Assembly: GCA_021810505.1 (NCBI GenBank)
Contig: JAJZIR010000018.1
Location: 1-51,740, forward strand
Reading direction: 5' to 3'
Source: a bacterium
Lineage (GTDB): Bacteria; Deinococcota; Deinococci; Deinococcales; Deinococcaceae
DNA length: 51,740 bases
Position numbers and translations under genes: made by a program
In this document: piece by piece, positions 5,441 to 51,648 of the stretch
Layout: each line of letters begins with the position of its first letter
How positions within the stretch are numbered: the stretch's first letter is position 1
Notes under the pieces: model-generated
What the model was told of the DNA's origin: nothing
Databases searched by the model: none
What the model saw: only the letters and a program-made list of their open reading frames with translations

Positions 5441-6445
5441 TCAGCTGCGATCGCGCCGGCGCAAAGCCAGCCAGAGCAGCAGCCCGCCAGCTGCCCAGAT
5501 CCACCAGCGGCTCCTGCGGTGCCGGCCCTCAGCACCGGCCCCCGGCGGCACAGGAGCCGGAGAGCGCGCTGCTAGCTCGGGCGAGCGCACCGGAACAGGG
5601 GCGCCCGCCTCCCCCGAGCGCGACCCAGCGGTGACGCTGTACCCCCAAATCAGCTCCGCGCCCAGGTACAAGATCTGGGCGGAGTAGTAGACCCACAGCA
5701 AGAGAGCCAAGAGAGACCCCGCAGCGCCGTAGACCGAGCCGGTGCTGGAGCGGGCGAAGTAGAGGCCGATGGCGTACTGGCCCAGCGCGAACAGGGCAGC
5801 GGTCAGCAGGCTGCCCCAAAAGATCTCCGACCAGGGTAGCTTGATCCTCGGAAGCAGCCGGAACAGCAGCGCGAAGAGCAAGGTGAACAGGGCGATCTGC
5901 ACCAAAGTGTCCAGCAACCGCAGCCATAGGGCGACGTCGCCGATCCGGTCGCGCAGGATATCCCCGAAGGCGGAGAGAGCGGTATTGGCCACCAGGAACA
6001 GCAGCACCACCAGGCCGACCACGAGCACCATCAAGAAGGTCAGCAACCGGTTGCGCACCAGCGCCCACCAGCCCAGCGGCGGGATCGCCTGGGTGCCACC
6101 CCAGATCGAGTTGAGGGCGTCTTGGAGTTGCAGGAACACCCCCGAAGAGGAGAACAGCAAAGTGACCGCCCCCACCAGTGCCGCCAGAACGCCGGACTCG
6201 GGGCGAGCGACGCTGGCTACCAGCCGGCGCAGGATCGCGGTCACTTTGGGCGTACCGATGGCCGAGATGGCGGCCAAGACCTGGTGCTGGGCCAGGTGGG
6301 GGCCCAGCACCACACCAACGATCCCGACGATCACCACGATCAAAGGAGCGATGGACAACAGGACAAAGAAAGCCAAGGCGGCCGAGAGGCGAGGGACGCG
6401 GTCTCTGGAATAGCCGGCCAGGCTGGCCTGCAGCAAAGCCAGCAA
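5441..6445 (-). CDS. YihY/BrkB family membrane protein
   Basis: A 334-residue polytopic protein with about six membrane segments between residues 18 and 275 and the family pattern: SAALAFFVLLSIAPL near the start, LQDALNSIWG in the middle, and GSLLALLLWVYYSAQILYLGAEL late. Once annotated as ribonuclease BN, the family is now regarded as an inner-membrane protein of uncertain role. After a Pro/Ala-rich linker there is one further hydrophobic segment (WWIWAAGGLLLWLAL) and a basic tail. The likely start is TTG 6445, 11 nt after the thyX stop; no better in-frame start exists there. Operon with thyX. Confidence 0.88.
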   Translation of the reverse strand: MLALLQASLAGYSRDRVPRLSAALAFFVLLSIAPLIVVIVGIVGVVLGPHLAQHQVLAAISAIGTPKVTAILRRLVASVARPESGVLAALVGAVTLLFSSSGVFLQLQDALNSIWGGTQAIPPLGWWALVRNRLLTFLMVLVVGLVVLLFLVANTALSAFGDILRDRIGDVALWLRLLDTLVQIALFTLLFALLFRLLPRIKLPWSEIFWGSLLTAALFALGQYAIGLYFARSSTGSVYGAAGSLLALLLWVYYSAQILYLGAELIWGYSVTAGSRSGEAGAPVPVRSPELAARSPAPVPPGAGAEGRHRRSRWWIWAAGGLLLWLALRRRDRS

Positions 6446-6456
6446 CTTCGCTGCGC

Positions 6457-7143
6457 TCAGCGCGCCGACCTCGCTTCTCTCCAGGCTGCGAAGCAGACCG
6501 GGAAGATCGGCTCGCCCAGCTGCTCAAGAGCTTTGGCGTACTGGCGGATCTCCCACTGCGCCCCTGGGTGGTCGCGCAGCTCGAGGAAGTGGAAGAGCGC
6601 GCGCAGGTTGCAGCTGAAGTACATTTCTGAGTACATCGCCGTGGGGAGTACCCCCCGGGCTTGCTCGCGCGCGACGCCCAAGGCGAGCAGTTTCTGGTAG
6701 CAAAGGTAGGATTCCTGCCAAGCAGCCTGCCACAGGCTGGCGGCCTGCTCCTGGGGTACCTGCGGGCTCTCCACCGAAGCCTGCTTGTTGCCCGTGGCCT
6801 GGGCCCGGAAAACCTGAGGTCGGTAATGAAGGTCCTGTACTTCGCTATACCTCGCGGATATCTCGTTGTAGGAGGCGATACGGTGGCGCATCCATTGCCT
6901 CAGAACGAAGATCGGCGCTACCACCTTGAAGGTCATCGCGTTGTGCTCGAAAGGGCTTCCGTGGTCGTGGGCCAGCAGGTAGCGGATCAGCTTCGCGTCG
7001 CGCGGGGACAGCGGCCCACTACCCGGGCGGTCTTGACCGTAGCTCACCCTCGCCGCATTGACCACGCTTTGGTCGTCGCCCATGTGCTGCACCAAGCTGA
7101 CGCTCCCGATCCCGTCTCCCAAGGGGTGCACTACCGAGTCCAC
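6457..7143 (-). CDS. thyX: flavin-dependent thymidylate synthase
   Basis: A 228-residue ThyX converting dUMP to dTMP with methylenetetrahydrofolate, NADPH and FAD. The diagnostic RHRxxSxNExSxRY motif is intact at residues 86-99. Other conserved pieces are SPFEHNAMTF and the C-terminal LRALFHFLELR. Length is normal. GTG start at 7143 with TAGAGT ending 6 nt upstream, hence a leaderless mRNA. It heads a probable two-gene unit with the YihY-like gene. Pterin genes folE, folB and folK occur elsewhere in the window. Confidence 0.95.
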   Translation of the reverse strand: MDSVVHPLGDGIGSVSLVQHMGDDQSVVNAARVSYGQDRPGSGPLSPRDAKLIRYLLAHDHGSPFEHNAMTFKVVAPIFVLRQWMRHRIASYNEISARYSEVQDLHYRPQVFRAQATGNKQASVESPQVPQEQAASLWQAAWQESYLCYQKLLALGVAREQARGVLPTAMYSEMYFSCNLRALFHFLELRDHPGAQWEIRQYAKALEQLGEPIFPVCFAAWREARSAR

Positions 7144-7149
7144 CCTGTC

Positions 7150-7155
7150 ACTCTA
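7150..7155 (-). promoter_or_regulatory. -10 box for thyX
   Basis: TAGAGT read on the minus strand (7155-7150), 6 nt before the GTG at 7143. It sits just before the stop codon of the upstream EVE gene, so thyX has its own promoter as well as any read-through. Confidence 0.55.
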
Positions 7156-7635
7156 CTAGACGCCCTGGACCAGGGGCGGCTCTAGGCCTTCCAGCTCCAA
7201 GACCCTCTGCCAGAAGGCCGCAGGGACGGGCAGGACCGAGAGGCGGTTGCCGCGCCTCAGCAAAGGCCAGGCGGCGAGATCTGGTTGCAGGCGCAGCTCG
7301 CAGAGGGGCAGCGCGCGGCGCAGCGGCCGCTCGGCCCTCAGGTCCACCGCCCACCAGCGCGGCGCCTCAGGGGTGCTGCGCGGATCGAAGTAGCGGCTGG
7401 CAGGATCGAACTGGGAAGGATCGGGGTAGGCTCCAGCGACCACCTCGGCCAGGCCGACGATGGCGGGAAGAGGGCAGCTGCTGTGATAGAACAGCACCCC
7501 GTCTCCGCAGCGCATCTCCTGCAGATAGCGGCGCGCCTGGTGGTTACGGACGCCGCTCCACGGCTCGCTGGCGCGCGCCATCAGGTCGGCAAAGGAGAAA
7601 GCGGACGGTTCACTTTTGACCAGCCAGCCAGCCAT
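7156..7635 (-). CDS. EVE domain protein
   Basis: A 159-residue single-domain EVE protein of the thymocyte nuclear protein 1 type. It begins with the family hallmark MAGWLVKSEPSAFSFADL and continues with WSGVRNHQARRYLQEMRCGDGVLFYHS and the VGLAEVV strand. EVE domains belong to the PUA-like fold and bind modified bases in DNA or RNA. There is no restriction or toxin partner next to it here, so it may act as a stand-alone modified-base reader. ATG start with TATCCT ending 6 nt upstream (leaderless); divergent from the protease at 7667. Confidence 0.92.
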   Translation of the reverse strand: MAGWLVKSEPSAFSFADLMARASEPWSGVRNHQARRYLQEMRCGDGVLFYHSSCPLPAIVGLAEVVAGAYPDPSQFDPASRYFDPRSTPEAPRWWAVDLRAERPLRRALPLCELRLQPDLAAWPLLRRGNRLSVLPVPAAFWQRVLELEGLEPPLVQGV

Positions 7636-42693: not shown

Positions 42694-43662
42694 ATGATCA
42701 ACCGCATTGCATTGCTCACCAGCGGCGGGGACGCACCCGGGATGAACGCAGCGGTTCGGGCGGTGGTCCGAACCGCCTCCTCCTGCAACATCGAGGTGAT
42801 CGGTGTGCGCCGGGGCTTCGCCGGCCTGATCGAGGGGGACTCGCGCACGTTGGGACCGCGCGACGTCGCCAACATCATCCAGCGCGGGGGCACCATCTTG
42901 CTGTCGGCTAGGTCCAAGGATTTCCTCTCCAGGGAGGGGCGCGCCCGAGCCGCCGAGAACCTGCACCTCTGGGACGTCGACGGCCTGGTGATCATCGGGG
43001 GGGACGGCTCCTTCCACGGCGGCCAGCGGCTGCTCGACGAGTTCAGCATCCCGGTGATCGGCATCCCGGGGACCATCGACAACGACCTGTTCGGCAGCGA
43101 CTTCACCATCGGCTACGACACCGCGGTCGAGACCGCGCTGTCCGCCATCGATAAGCTGCGCGACACCGCCGCCAGCCACGAGCGCATCTTCGTGGTGGAG
43201 GTGATGGGCAGGAACGCCGGGTTCATCGCGCTGGACGTGGCTGTGGCTGGCGGCGCCGAAGAGGTCTTGATCCCGGAGGCGCCGGTCCCGATCGATTCGG
43301 TCATCGAGACGGTTCAGGAGAGCCTCCGGAAGGGCAAGACCTCCTCGATCATCGTCGTGGCCGAGGGCGTAGACGGGGGGGCGCTGCAGGTCCGCCAGGC
43401 CATCGAGCAGGCTACCGGCCACGAGGTGCGGGCGACCATCTTGGGGCACATCCAGCGGGGGGGGACCCCGACCGCCGCCGACCGCATCCTGGCTAGCCGG
43501 CTGGGCGAAGCGGCGGTAAAGGCTCTGGTGGAGGGCCGCAGCGGCGTGATGGTAGGCATCGTCAACGGCAACGTCCACCACACCGCCCTGCCGCTGACCT
43601 GGGAGCGGCGCAAGGAGGTCAACCCCCACCTCTACGCCTGCGCCAAGACGCTCTCGATCTGA
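42694..43662 (+). CDS. pfkA: ATP-dependent 6-phosphofructokinase
   Basis: A 322-residue [22 protein letters not shown] starts the protein, [11 protein letters not shown] has Gly rather than Asp after GGD and so indicates ATP rather than pyrophosphate as donor, IPGTIDND holds the catalytic Asp, and EVMGRNAG and [15 protein letters not shown] are present. ATG start 4 nt after rsmI. A GC hairpin (43663-43675) directly follows the stop. Confidence 0.96.
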
Positions 43663-43675
43663 GCCGCTCGGCGGC
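43663..43675 (+). terminator. weak hairpin after pfkA
   Basis: GCCGC-TCG-GCGGC directly after the stop. No U-run follows closely; the T-rich tract begins 55 bp later. A terminator role is uncertain. Confidence 0.35.
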
Positions 43676-43730
43676 CAGGTCCCCGCAAGTCAGGCGAATC
43701 CACTCCCCGGTTGCCCCCAGGGACTTTCAC

Positions 43731-43766
43731 TTTTTTATTGTTTTTTATTCTTTTTTATGCTATAAA
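43731..43766 (+). promoter_or_regulatory. helically phased T6 tracts and promoter of galE
   Basis: Three 10-bp units in register, TTTTTTATTG, TTTTTTATTC and TTTTTTATGC (43731-43760), then TATAAA (43761-43766) 6 nt before ATG 43773. T-tracts repeated every helical turn bend DNA strongly and also resemble an UP element. This is the most AT-rich spot in the window. Confidence 0.7.
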
Positions 43767-43772
43767 TTGGAT

Positions 43773-44783
43773 ATGACCGAGGGGATGGCGGGGGGAGAAG
43801 AAGCGACAAAGGTCTTAGTGGTCGGCGGGGCGGGGTACGTGGGTAGCCACGCCTGCCTGGCCCTGGCCGAGGCGGGGTTCCTGCCGGTCACGGTCGACAA
43901 CCTGGTGTACGGCCACCGCTGGGCGGTGCAGTGGGGCCCGCTGGAGCAGGGCGACCTGGCCGACAAAGCCTTCTTAGGGGCGGTGCTGGAGCGACACCGC
44001 CCCGCCGCGGTACTGCACTTCGCGGCCTACACCTACGTCGGCGAATCGGTCGAGCAGCCGGCCAAGTACTACCGCAACAACGTCCTCGGCACGCTCAACC
44101 TGCTGGAGGCGATGGTCGAGGCCGGTATCCGCAAGCTGGTCTTCTCCAGCACCTGCGCGGTCTACGGACCACCTCAACGGCTGCCGCTCACCGAGGACCA
44201 CCCCCTAGCTCCGATCAGCCCTTACGGGGAGAGCAAGCGGATGGTCGAAGCGATGCTGCGCGACTTCGGCAGAGCCTACGGCCTGCAGGCCACCGCGCTG
44301 CGCTACTTCAACGTGGCGGGGGCCGACCCCCAGGGGAGGACCGGGGAGTCGCACGATCCGGAGACCCACCTGATCCCGCTGGTTCTAGACGTCGCCAGCG
44401 GCCGCAGGCCAGCCATCGCGGTCTTCGGGAATGACTACGCTACCCCGGACGGGACCTGCATCCGCGACTACATCCACGCCAGCGACCTGGCCCAGGCCCA
44501 CCTGCTGGCCCTGCGCCGGTTGTTGGAAGGTACCGGAGGCGGGGTGTACAACCTAGGCAACGGCGACGGCTTCTCGGTGCTGGAGGTGATCCAGGCGGTA
44601 GAGCGGGTGACCGGACGCGAGATCCCGGTCACCCTCCAGGGCCGGCGGCCGGGCGACCCGGACCGCCTGGTCGCCGACGCCAGCAAGGCCAGGGGCGAAC
44701 TGGGCTGGAACCCCAGGTACCTGGGCAAGGAGGGCTTAGAGCAGATCATCGCCACGGCCTGGCGCTGGCACCAGCGGGGCTGA
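43773..44783 (+). CDS. galE: UDP-glucose 4-epimerase
   Basis: A 336-residue extended SDR. The NAD motif VVGGAGYVGSH lies at about residues 16-26, the catalytic Ser is in SSTCAVYG and Tyr/Lys in SPYGESK; ALRYFNVAGADPQGRTGESHDPETHLIP and DYATPDGTCIRDYIHASDLAQAH are typical GalE. It supplies UDP-galactose for the glycans built by the following genes. The start is ATG 43773; an in-frame TTG at 43767 is possible. An N-terminal extension (MTEGMAGGEEATK) precedes the domain. Confidence 0.95.
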   Translation: MTEGMAGGEEATKVLVVGGAGYVGSHACLALAEAGFLPVTVDNLVYGHRWAVQWGPLEQGDLADKAFLGAVLERHRPAAVLHFAAYTYVGESVEQPAKYYRNNVLGTLNLLEAMVEAGIRKLVFSSTCAVYGPPQRLPLTEDHPLAPISPYGESKRMVEAMLRDFGRAYGLQATALRYFNVAGADPQGRTGESHDPETHLIPLVLDVASGRRPAIAVFGNDYATPDGTCIRDYIHASDLAQAHLLALRRLLEGTGGGVYNLGNGDGFSVLEVIQAVERVTGREIPVTLQGRRPGDPDRLVADASKARGELGWNPRYLGKEGLEQIIATAWRWHQRG

Positions 44784-44833: not shown

Positions 44834-46270
44834 GTGGCCTATAGCCAGCAGGAAAAGCGAGGTGGGGTCGCCGGGAGCTGGACCGGGGCCTTCTCCTGGG
44901 ACTCGGCGCCGCAGGGCCTAGCCATGCTGGGCGCTGACCTGGTGGCGGCCTACCTGAGCTACCACGCCGTCAACGCCCTGCAATTCCAGGGCAACCGCAC
45001 TCCCCTCAGCGTCGGCTACACCGGGGCCTGGATGACCTTCTGGATGCTCGCCCGGCTTTACCAGCAGCTCTACCCCGGCTACGGCAACTCCCCGGAGCAA
45101 GAGCTCAGGCAGCACGTCCTGACCTGCGGGGAAGCCGCCGTAGGTCAGTTCGCCATCTCCTTCGCGATCCACAGCTTCGCCAGCAGCCGGCTGGGGCTGG
45201 GGCTGGTCTGGGTGGTGCTTACCCTGGTCTCGCTGCTCACCCGCACGCTGACCCGGCGGCTGCTGATCCGCCTGGGCCGCTACGGCCGCCCGGTCTCGAT
45301 CATCGGCGCCGGCAAGACCGGGCGGCTGACCACTTCGTACCTGCTGAGCCACCCCGAGTTCGGCCTCAGGCCGGTGGCGATCTATGACGACGACCCCGCC
45401 CTGTCCGGCTGCCAGGTCGCAGGTATCCCGGTGTTGGGCGACCTGGAGCTGGCCGGGAACCAGCCGCTGACCGTGCACGCCATCGTCAGCATCCCGGGAG
45501 CCCGGGCGGAGCGCCAGAGCGAGATCATCCGCAAGATGCTGGAGGCTTATCCGATCACCTGGACCACCCCCGACCTGTTCGGTGTCCCCAGCCAGTCGCT
45601 GCAACCGCACGTCATTGGCACCCACGCCACGCTGGAAGTCCGCAACAACCTGCGCAGCCTGCAGGCCAGGCTGATCAAGCGCAGCATCGACCTAGCCGCG
45701 GCGCTCCTGGGAGGGGTGCTGATCAGCCCCTTCCTGCTGGCCATCGCGCTGGCCATCCGAGTGGACAGCCAAGGACCCGCGCTCTACGTGGCCACGCGGC
45801 TGGGCCGGGGCGGCGAACCCTTCCGCTGCTACAAGTTCCGCACCATGCACAGAGACGCCGAGCAGCGCTTGGAGCAGGTCCTGGAAGACCCAGAGCGCCG
45901 CCGCGAGTACGAGACCTTCCACAAGCTCAAGGAAGATCCCCGGGTCACCCGGGTCGGCCGCTGGCTCAGGCGGACCAGCTTGGACGAGCTGCCGCAGATC
46001 CTCAACGTGCTGCTGGGTTCGATGAGCCTGGTGGGTCCCCGCCCCTACCTGCCCTCAGAGCAGGGGAAGGTGGGCAAACAGGGCGGCTTCATCCTGCAGG
46101 TCCACCCGGGGATCACCGGGCTGTGGCAGACCAGCGGGCGCAATCAGCTGTCCTTCAGCGAGCGGGTAGAGATGGATTCCTTCTATGTCAGCAACTGGAG
46201 CATCTGGCTGGACCTGGTCATCTTGCTGCGCACCGCCCGGGTGGTCCTGACCAGGCGCGGAGCCTACTGA
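44834..46270 (+). CDS. polyprenyl-phosphate sugar-1-phosphate transferase (WbaP-like)
   Basis: A 478-residue initiating glycosyltransferase. The N-terminal half has four to five membrane segments followed by a nucleotide-binding-like region ([17 protein letters not shown]). The C-terminal catalytic domain (from about residue 285) has [59 protein letters not shown] and [13 protein letters not shown]. It transfers sugar-1-phosphate, possibly galactose given galE next door, to undecaprenyl phosphate at the inner membrane. GTG start. Converges with the ABC ATPase gene (7-nt overlap). Confidence 0.92.
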
Positions 46271-49298: not shown

Positions 49299-50912
49299 CT
49301 AAGGGATCGCGTAAGCGACCAGTTGTGGGTGGCCGCCCCCGTGCAACCCCAGCTTAGGCCCTCCTGCTGGCACGAGAACGGTGTTGCCGGCGATGGCAAT
49401 CGTTGAGTTGTCCGACGTAGGCAATGCGTGGCGGTAAACGACTGCGCCGGTATACCGGTTGAGCGCCACCAGAACACCGCTGTATAGCGTCGTAAAGACC
49501 AGGTTATTCGAGACAGTAGCTCCCCCTAAGGGCATTTGGGGGAACTTAGTGTCCCATTCGACTTTTCCGGTGGCGAGGCTGAGTGCCTCTATCTCACCGG
49601 TCGCCCGGGTGTGTACCGACGCGACGTTTGCTCCTGCGACCTGACGCAGGGAAGTGAAGCGGAAGGGATCGTCGACGGTCGCTACGTAGACGCTACCGCC
49701 GGCCACTGCCAGGTTGCTCAACACCCCACCCAAGGAGCCTGGCTCGTAGGTAAAAGGTGCCTTCAGCTTGTTCCGGTGGTGGAGAGCCTGGAGGGAGTCT
49801 CGGCCATGGCCATTATGCCTCCCGACCGGTGTCTTCCAGAGGAGGGCACCGGTCGCGGCGTTCATCGCGTAGACCACACCCATCTTCCCCGAGCCGATGA
49901 CTGCCGGAATGCGGCCGACGGTAGCCGCGACCGGCGAAGTCTGCATGTCGTAGTCTTTGAAGTCGTCCGGAACCCCTTGGTAGTACCACCGGAGCTTACC
50001 CGTAGCTGCGGCCAGGTTCACGTCGCTGTCCGTATAGGCGAGGGTAGAAGGGTGCTGGATCGCAGAGGCGGCCGACTGGTAGGGGTTACCTGTACCGTAG
50101 GTGACCGACCCGTCCGTCCCGACGAGAGGCGTCTCCCAAGCTCCACCAGCTACGAACACACCGGGATGGGTATGGCGCAGGGTGCTGAATTTCCAGATAA
50201 CCGCCCCATCCGACGCGTTGAGCGCGAGCAAAACACCTCCATGTGAGCTTTTCCCGAACGCACTCGCCAGGTAAACCCGCCCGCCAGCAACCTGAGGTTG
50301 GATGCCGAAGGTACCCTGACTCTTCCTCAGGAGATGGCGGTCCACCCAGAGGGGCTTGCCGGTCGCTGCCGAGAGGGCGAAAGCGGTCGTCGGTGAATCG
50401 CCATAGACGACCCCGCCTTCGACCGCAACGCCGTCTGGACCTAGGCTGGGGAGCGGAGAATTCAGGCGATACTCCCACTTGAGCTTCCCAGATGCCAGCG
50501 ACAGCGCATAGACATTGGCGTAGAGATCTTGAAGATAGACGACACCACCCACTACGATCGGCGTCGCGGCGAGCGAACCAAACACCGAAACTCCTTTGGC
50601 TGCCTTGCCTGTGATCTTGAAAGACCAGACCTGCCTCAGGCTCGCCACATTCGCCGACGAGATCGTCGAGCCTGGCGCCACGCGGTTGTTGGCGAGGTCA
50701 GCATTGGGGTATGGCCATGAACCCGATGGCCCCGAAGTGGCCGAGCCAGCCATACCACCGATCAACCCTCCCGCAGCCACCAAGCTCGCGGCTGCAAGAA
50801 GCCCAGACTTGAAATACCTGCGCCCTAGCGAACGGACACGGCCGTAGTGTTCGCCGCGTGAGCTGGCCATGGTCCCGGCGATCCAAGAGGCACTTTCGTC
50901 CGATGACCTCAT
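49299..50912 (-). CDS. exported PQQ-like beta-propeller protein
   Basis: A 537-residue protein. The N-terminal GRRYFKSGLLAAASLVAAGG (about residues 30-49) looks like a twin-arginine signal. The rest is built of repeated propeller blades with the PQQ-like pattern, e.g. VYALSLASGKLKWEY, AFALSAATGKPLWVD, LLALNASDGAVIWKF, VYAMNAATGALLWKT, IEALSLATGKVEWDT and LVALNRYTGAVVYRH. It may be a quinoprotein dehydrogenase-like enzyme or a non-catalytic propeller; the cofactor-binding disulphide of alcohol dehydrogenases is not seen. ATG with GGAGG SD. Lower GC than its neighbours. Confidence 0.85.
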   Translation of the reverse strand: MRSSDESASWIAGTMASSRGEHYGRVRSLGRRYFKSGLLAAASLVAAGGLIGGMAGSATSGPSGSWPYPNADLANNRVAPGSTISSANVASLRQVWSFKITGKAAKGVSVFGSLAATPIVVGGVVYLQDLYANVYALSLASGKLKWEYRLNSPLPSLGPDGVAVEGGVVYGDSPTTAFALSAATGKPLWVDRHLLRKSQGTFGIQPQVAGGRVYLASAFGKSSHGGVLLALNASDGAVIWKFSTLRHTHPGVFVAGGAWETPLVGTDGSVTYGTGNPYQSAASAIQHPSTLAYTDSDVNLAAATGKLRWYYQGVPDDFKDYDMQTSPVAATVGRIPAVIGSGKMGVVYAMNAATGALLWKTPVGRHNGHGRDSLQALHHRNKLKAPFTYEPGSLGGVLSNLAVAGGSVYVATVDDPFRFTSLRQVAGANVASVHTRATGEIEALSLATGKVEWDTKFPQMPLGGATVSNNLVFTTLYSGVLVALNRYTGAVVYRHALPTSDNSTIAIAGNTVLVPAGGPKLGLHGGGHPQLVAYAIP

Positions 50913-51376: not shown

Positions 51377-51648
51377 GGTCGGAACCTACCCATCCGAGCC
51401 CACCCGAGCCCATCCGGCCCACCCGAGCCAAGACACTAAGCACCGGTGCGTGCACACGTACGCACCCACGGGATTGCTGGTCGGAACCTACCCATCCGAG
51501 CCCACCCGAGCCCATCCGGCCCACCCGAGCCAAGACACTAAGCACCGGTGCGTGCACACGTACGCACCCACGGGATTGCTGGTCAGAACCTACCCATCCG
51601 AGCCCACCCGAGCCCATCCGGCCCACCCGAGCCAAGACACTAAGCACC
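51377..51648. repeat. 102-bp tandem repeat, about 2.7 copies
   Basis: Copies begin at 51377, 51479 and 51581 (last partial, to about 51648) and are nearly identical (one visible change, GGTCGG to GGTCAG). Each full copy has C-rich 10-bp subrepeats (CCCACCCGAG/CCCATCCGG) and an inverted repeat GGTGCGT-(8 nt)-ACGCACC (51445-51466, 51547-51568). The period is a multiple of 3, so frames stay open without implying a gene. Confidence 0.9.

Follow-up and report, generated by a model that had tools for sequence, protein, structure and literature searches.

Three helically phased T6 tracts in the predicted core promoter of a galE-like gene in a GC-rich Deinococcaceae genome

Introduction

What role can be attributed to three T6 tracts that follow one another with an exact 10-bp period immediately upstream of a galE-like gene, in DNA that is otherwise rich in G and C? 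The question arises in a window of 51,740 nucleotides, the whole stretch of Deinococcaceae DNA analysed here, the GC content of which is 67.5%. The sequence from 43731 to 43766 reads TTTTTTATTG TTTTTTATTC TTTTTTATGC TATAAA; it is followed by TTGGAT and then by an ATG codon at 43773. An initial annotation had proposed that this array is exceptional, that it should bend DNA, that it may attract either a xenogeneic silencer or the RNA polymerase alpha-CTD and so control surface-glycan genes, and that slippage in the T6 runs could vary expression.

Several known systems can be compared with this locus. In Synechocystis, helically phased A-tracts are aligned with the -10 element and the start site on a genome-wide scale (PMC9825172), and reports cited in that article describe promoter function for phased A-tracts on their own. 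A leaderless -10 signal has been described for Deinococcus-Thermus (PMC3160421). Experiments in Deinococcus located -10 motifs 6-7 bp upstream of the ORF, most of which have no accompanying -35 element, and adding a -35 element at 17 bp raises expression in D. radiodurans (PMC12340547).

Genomic Setting of the Array

The array lies in the 110-bp intergenic region that separates galE from pfkA, and 6 bases remain between its end and ATG 43773. Its neighbours are housekeeping and glycan genes of an ordinary type, rich in G and C. The features of the locus are as follows:

42694..43662, + strand, pfkA (6-phosphofructokinase), the upstream gene, with its stop 68 bp before tract 1
43731..43736, + strand, T6 tract 1 (A6 on the other strand), at -42 to -37 if RNA starts at 43773
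43741..43746, + strand, T6 tract 2, exactly 10 bp after tract 1, at -32 to -27 if RNA starts at 43773
43751..43756, + strand, T6 tract 3, exactly 10 bp after tract 2, at -22 to -17 if RNA starts at 43773
43773..44783, + strand, galE-like NAD-dependent epimerase, likely start ATG 43773, with in-frame alternatives ATG 43785 and TTG 43767
44834..46270, + strand, bacterial sugar transferase (WbaP-like), downstream, possibly co-transcribed with galE

The start of galE is uncertain because two in-frame ATG codons lie 12 nt apart. No Shine-Dalgarno sequence is present upstream of ATG 43773; GAGGGG directly abuts ATG 43785, a spacing too short for a usual Shine-Dalgarno site. Homologous GalE proteins start near the residue equivalent to T12 here. 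The segment 43773-43808 adds about 11 residues (MTEGMAGGEEA) to the N-terminus of GalE, and its homologues have no such extension.

Convergent ABC-2 transporter genes, forming an exporter pair, lie beyond the sugar transferase gene. With this pair and the sugar transferase near galE, the proposed link of the array to surface glycans is plausible. Other observations concern the same region and genome. A PQQ-type beta-propeller protein with a probable signal sequence is encoded on the minus strand at 49299-50912 and adjoins the glycan export genes. The best matches of an aldolase of the window are PDB entries 2fjk and 1rv8, which we take to be Thermus proteins. This match and the leaderless -10 signal described below fit a place in Deinococcota; DdrB is absent from the genome, which says little when taken alone.

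Rarity and Likely Origin of the Array

Tandem repeat analysis (TRF) describes the array as a 10-bp unit present in 2.9 copies with 89% match, in agreement with the three exactly spaced tracts followed by TATAAA that had been pointed out initially. These tracts are the only T6/A6 runs of the window outside genes, and the other T6/A6 runs found in a 405-kb genome sample that includes the window are mostly single and intragenic. The pattern T6-N4-T6-N4-T6 occurs once in the whole 2.31-Mb genome, namely at this site. In the same genome, phased T4 triplets are found at one other place and pairs of T5 runs 9-12 bp apart at four other places. The A+T content of the array is 32/36, the highest of any 36-mer in the window, and the maximum among 36-mers of a 353-kb sample of the same genome is 28/36. 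The array is thus statistically exceptional for this genome, as had been claimed. Three independent phased T6 runs would be expected about 4e-7 times per genome, a figure that ignores tandem duplication and overstates the surprise, since the near-identical units point to tandem duplication as the likely origin of the array.

The other phased T4 triplet lies in an AT-richer patch with several T6-T7 runs (L112, G000:C20 ~6090-7270), next to genes for a UvrD-type helicase and an ATPase-like protein (GLRGVGKT). L160 (G000:C12:53075-53088) and L159 (G000:C8:161832-161848) each show a pair of A5-A6 tracts separated by roughly one helical turn; their surroundings are AT-rich and look intergenic, and they may be weaker relatives of the galE array. 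Near the contig end, a 102-bp tandem repeat (51377-51648; 2.7 copies, 99% match) is built from CCCATCCGAG/CCCACCCGAG-like sub-repeats.

Predicted Curvature and Stability

The array has the layout expected of curved DNA, that is at least three A/T tracts of at least 4 residues with a period of about 10-11 bp. With a dinucleotide wedge model (Bolshoy parameters), its predicted bend is 48, 67, and 77 deg over 21, 31, and 42 steps, each value being the maximum of the window. For comparison, the mean bend in the 353-kb same-genome sample is 14 deg over 31 steps and 16 deg over 42 steps. In that sample, the bend of the array is equalled at 3 of 352,705 positions (31 steps) and at 1 of 352,485 (42 steps), so that the predicted curvature lies far over the genome background. 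A simple model that assigns 18 deg to each A6 gives 52 deg for the array. Hence, the two computational models agree with the initial proposal that the array should bend DNA, and the curvature prediction called for at the time yields the strongest predicted bend of the window.

The contribution of phasing can be appreciated from shuffled sequences. Random shuffles of the 43-mer reach the bend of the array in 0.5% of cases, and shuffles in which the three T6 blocks are kept intact but scattered do so in 3.4%. This last figure indicates that the predicted curvature comes mostly from the T6 tracts themselves and that their phasing adds moderately to it. As to stability, no 36-mer of the window is predicted to be less stable than the array.

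A Candidate Leaderless-Type -10 Signal Upstream of galE

In the 405-kb sample, we counted TANNNT motifs upstream of the ATG or GTG codons of GC3-biased ORFs. The motif was found at 12, 32, and 18 sites at gaps of 5, 6, and 7 bases, respectively, vs. 1-10 sites at each of the other gaps between 0 and 20. This peak 5-7 bases before ATG/GTG shows that the genome uses a leaderless-type -10 signal. A matrix was derived from such sites, which themselves score 4.3-10.4 bits, and was used to rank the candidates upstream of galE:

43738..43743, + strand, TTGTTT, weak -35-like sequence with 3/6 matches to TTGACA, the only match at 17-bp spacing from TATAAA
43756..43761, + strand, TATGCT, alternative -10 box, 9.2 bits, the top matrix score, gap of 11 to ATG
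43761..43766, + strand, TATAAA, most likely -10 box, 2.8 bits, gap of 6 to ATG, with A as final base where T is usual
43763..43768, + strand, TAAATT, overlapping TANNNT hexamer, 6.9 bits, gap of 4 to ATG

A consensus scan of the region found no sigma-70 pair. TATAAA stands at the right position for a leaderless promoter, but the last T of TANNNT is missing, and the location of the best-scoring box, TATGCT, 11 bases away from ATG is a point against a leaderless model. Whichever of the three -10 candidates is used, RNA would start no more than about 5 nt from ATG 43773, and the tracts would span -42 to -17 (start at 43773) or -37 to -12 (start at 43768), that is the -35 and spacer region. The A+T content between -45 and -14 is 0.84 at galE and does not exceed 0.62 in any of the sample's 62 other promoters of the leaderless type, so that T tracts do not normally belong to this promoter class.

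A competing explanation is a core promoter that is simply AT-rich, with low stability and overlapping -10 hexamers as its active features and no contribution from bending. The 10-bp period would then be a by-product of a tandem duplication of TTTTTTATTS by slippage. As every unit includes a TANNNT hexamer (TATTGT at 43736, TATTCT at 43746, and TATGCT at 43756), several starts 10 bp apart may be used. The near identity of the units, the scores of their hexamers on the genome's own matrix (6.2-9.2 bits), the position of the array as the least stable stretch of the window and its only moderate excess of bend over the block-keeping shuffles all go in this direction. However, TANNNT hexamers are expected by chance in a stretch so rich in A and T (about three by our estimate), which makes them weak evidence, and an activating curve would likewise need an exact 10-bp period. 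We regard this explanation as rather unlikely, although it is the strongest of the competing ones. A promoter architecture distinct from the known ones would result if tandem T6 plus TANNNT units were held in exact helical register, phased A-tracts replacing the -35 element of a leaderless gene with perhaps several starts one turn apart; we hold this reading to be quite doubtful.

Comparison With Related Genomes

Sixty-one genomes were searched, none of them from the same genus. Upstream regions of galE were compared at 29 homologous loci of the same order (L003-L031). A TANNNT box precedes the galE start at a gap of 6, 7, or 8 bases in 24 of the 29 (8, 14, and 2 cases, respectively) and almost never at other gaps; of the remaining five loci, four show a sequence resembling a Shine-Dalgarno site. 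Judging from these upstream regions, a leaderless transcription start would usually be the rule for galE in this order. The TATAAA of the present locus, at a gap of 6, coincides in position with the TANNNT box of these relatives.

In contrast, a phased T array was found before galE at none of the 29 loci. T5-T6 runs are present at L023 (one) and L025 (three), without any 10-bp recurrence in the stretches read. Since neither the galE promoters of the relatives nor the other leaderless promoters of this genome carry the tracts, these are not required for the promoter class. In the nearest relative, which belongs to the same family (G001; GalE 70% identical), galE follows a sugar-nucleotide gene within an operon, has GGAG before its ATG and hence needs no promoter of its own.

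Triple T6 arrays occur in 3 of 60 relatives: that of G011 lies within an AT-rich coding gene, that of G008 behind a terminator hairpin and that of G058 in a poly-T contig end. Neither galE nor a T array was found after pfkA in the stretches read at 11 relatives' loci, and the idea of a conserved pfkA-galE pair was therefore rejected; in G001, an inverted repeat follows pfkA. A wider contig scan for galE returned only distant galE genes from many phyla. As far as these comparisons go, the array is lineage-specific. Because it is not conserved and close relatives are missing from the comparison, selection on it cannot be shown.

Candidate Binding Partners of the Array

The genome encodes an RNA polymerase alpha-CTD (PF03118 match) in which, by eye, the equivalents of R265, G296, S299, and E302 are kept (TTRVLHSLK...GIGERSLDEIK). 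The array resembles UP elements in having phased A/T-rich tracts beside a predicted promoter. Unlike the A/T tracts of UP elements, located at about -40 to -60, its tracts lie between -42 and -12. For a predicted start between 43768 and 43773, only tract 1 touches the proximal edge of the UP region, and this in one model. The suggested attraction of the alpha-CTD is thus sustained by the presence of the domain with its contact residues and weakened by the position of the tracts, most of which, at about -42 to -17, are downstream of the usual site. Minor-groove contacts of the alpha-CTD with the tracts, mostly off the standard UP position, are possible.

No Lsr2 or H-NS protein was found in the genome by searches with PF00816 and PF11774, for which positive controls matched in E. 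coli and C. glutamicum. Neither these searches of the Lsr2 and H-NS families nor the neighbouring genes, which are GC-rich housekeeping and glycan genes, support the proposal of a xenogeneic silencer target, and it was rejected on these grounds.

Another nucleoid protein, of the HU type, or a specific regulator could bind the bent or repeated DNA and regulate galE. Direct repeats in phase can be operators, minor-groove binders are favoured by A-tracts, and one HU-family gene is present in the genome. On the other hand, Lsr2/H-NS proteins were not found, and the repeat is unique: no second copy exists in the whole genome even with 3 mismatches allowed, so that no regulon is visible. For the same reason a genome-wide operator was rejected. 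Regulation of galE by such a protein seems improbable to us.

Transcription Termination and Phase Variation

The proximity of the tracts to the end of pfkA raises the question of whether they serve mainly to terminate its transcription. U-rich stretches take part in termination, the tracts begin 68 bp past the pfkA stop, and the triple T6 array of G008 sits after a clear terminator hairpin. However, a GC-rich terminator-like hairpin was not found before the tracts, the folding energy of the region is no better than that of shuffled sequences (z -0.28), the nearest stable stem (~43656-43681) is about 50 nt upstream of the tracts, and pfkA of the relatives has no T array behind it. With no hairpin before the tracts and a fold no better than that of shuffles, the array was rejected as a pfkA terminator, and we consider a mainly terminating role very unlikely.

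The stem at 43656-43681 (GAUCUGAGCCGC/GCGGCCAGGUC) spans the pfkA stop codon and has no T run behind it. An RNA element or riboswitch was also rejected, Rfam having no match in the window or in 43600-43850.

By analogy with H. pylori sabA, where promoter-adjacent T-tracts act as rheostats (PMC4081817), slippage in the T6 runs or gain and loss of 10-bp units might vary galE expression, and a glycan gene would be a typical target of such a contingency locus. As at sabA, a T tract lies near the -35 region, and the sabA tract alters local DNA structure and polymerase binding. However, sabA has one long variable run and the present locus three short phased ones, T6 comparing with 9-16 nt for the listed H. 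pylori tracts (PMC4081817). Such phase variation is the least credible of the explanations considered here.

A Curved A-Tract Core Promoter as the Preferred Explanation

We consider it probable that the array makes up the upstream half of a galE promoter, namely a curved A-tract core promoter giving rise to a leaderless or near-leaderless message. The predicted promoter role is supported by the position of the array, by the leaderless -10 signal of the genome and by the galE -10 box of 24 of 29 relatives. The -10 element at 43761-43766 (TATAAA, overlapped by TATGCT and TAAATT) would start RNA at ATG 43773 or within about 5 nt of it, so that the galE message would have no leader or almost none. 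The three A6/T6 tracts, spaced by one helical turn, would cover the -35 and spacer region, curve and destabilise its DNA, and present a narrow minor groove on one face. Phased in this way, they may help RNA polymerase to bind, to wrap or bend the DNA, and to open the promoter, and thus make up for the lack of a good -35 element. We infer from this arrangement that the DNA acts as a promoter, where RNA starts, that bending brings a gain, and that transcription continues into the sugar transferase gene.

Such a promoter would share features with two known types. As in Synechocystis promoters (PMC9825172), the tracts are one helical turn apart and aligned with the -10 element and the predicted start; unlike the statistical pattern seen there over many promoters, a single isolated array, with full T6 tracts on the core promoter, stands here in a 67.5% GC context. 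As in Deinococcota leaderless promoters (PMC12340547; PMC3160421), a candidate -10 box lies about 6 bases before ATG, with no Shine-Dalgarno sequence and no good -35 element. The differences from the Deinococcota leaderless promoters seen in the present work are the T tracts and a -10 box, TATAAA, that is devoid of the last T of TANNNT.

The likeliest meaning of the array is thus ordinary in kind. Phased A-tracts and leaderless promoters with only a -10 element are each known and are rarely seen together. In AT-richer genomes, the effects of composition and curvature are hard to separate. With its 67.5% GC setting and the array-free galE promoters of the relatives, the present array, placed on a type of promoter in which a -35 element is usually missing, would offer a clean test, set up by nature, of whether the -35 contact can be replaced by curvature. 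For the organism itself, the array is a likely control point for the galE and sugar transferase pair.
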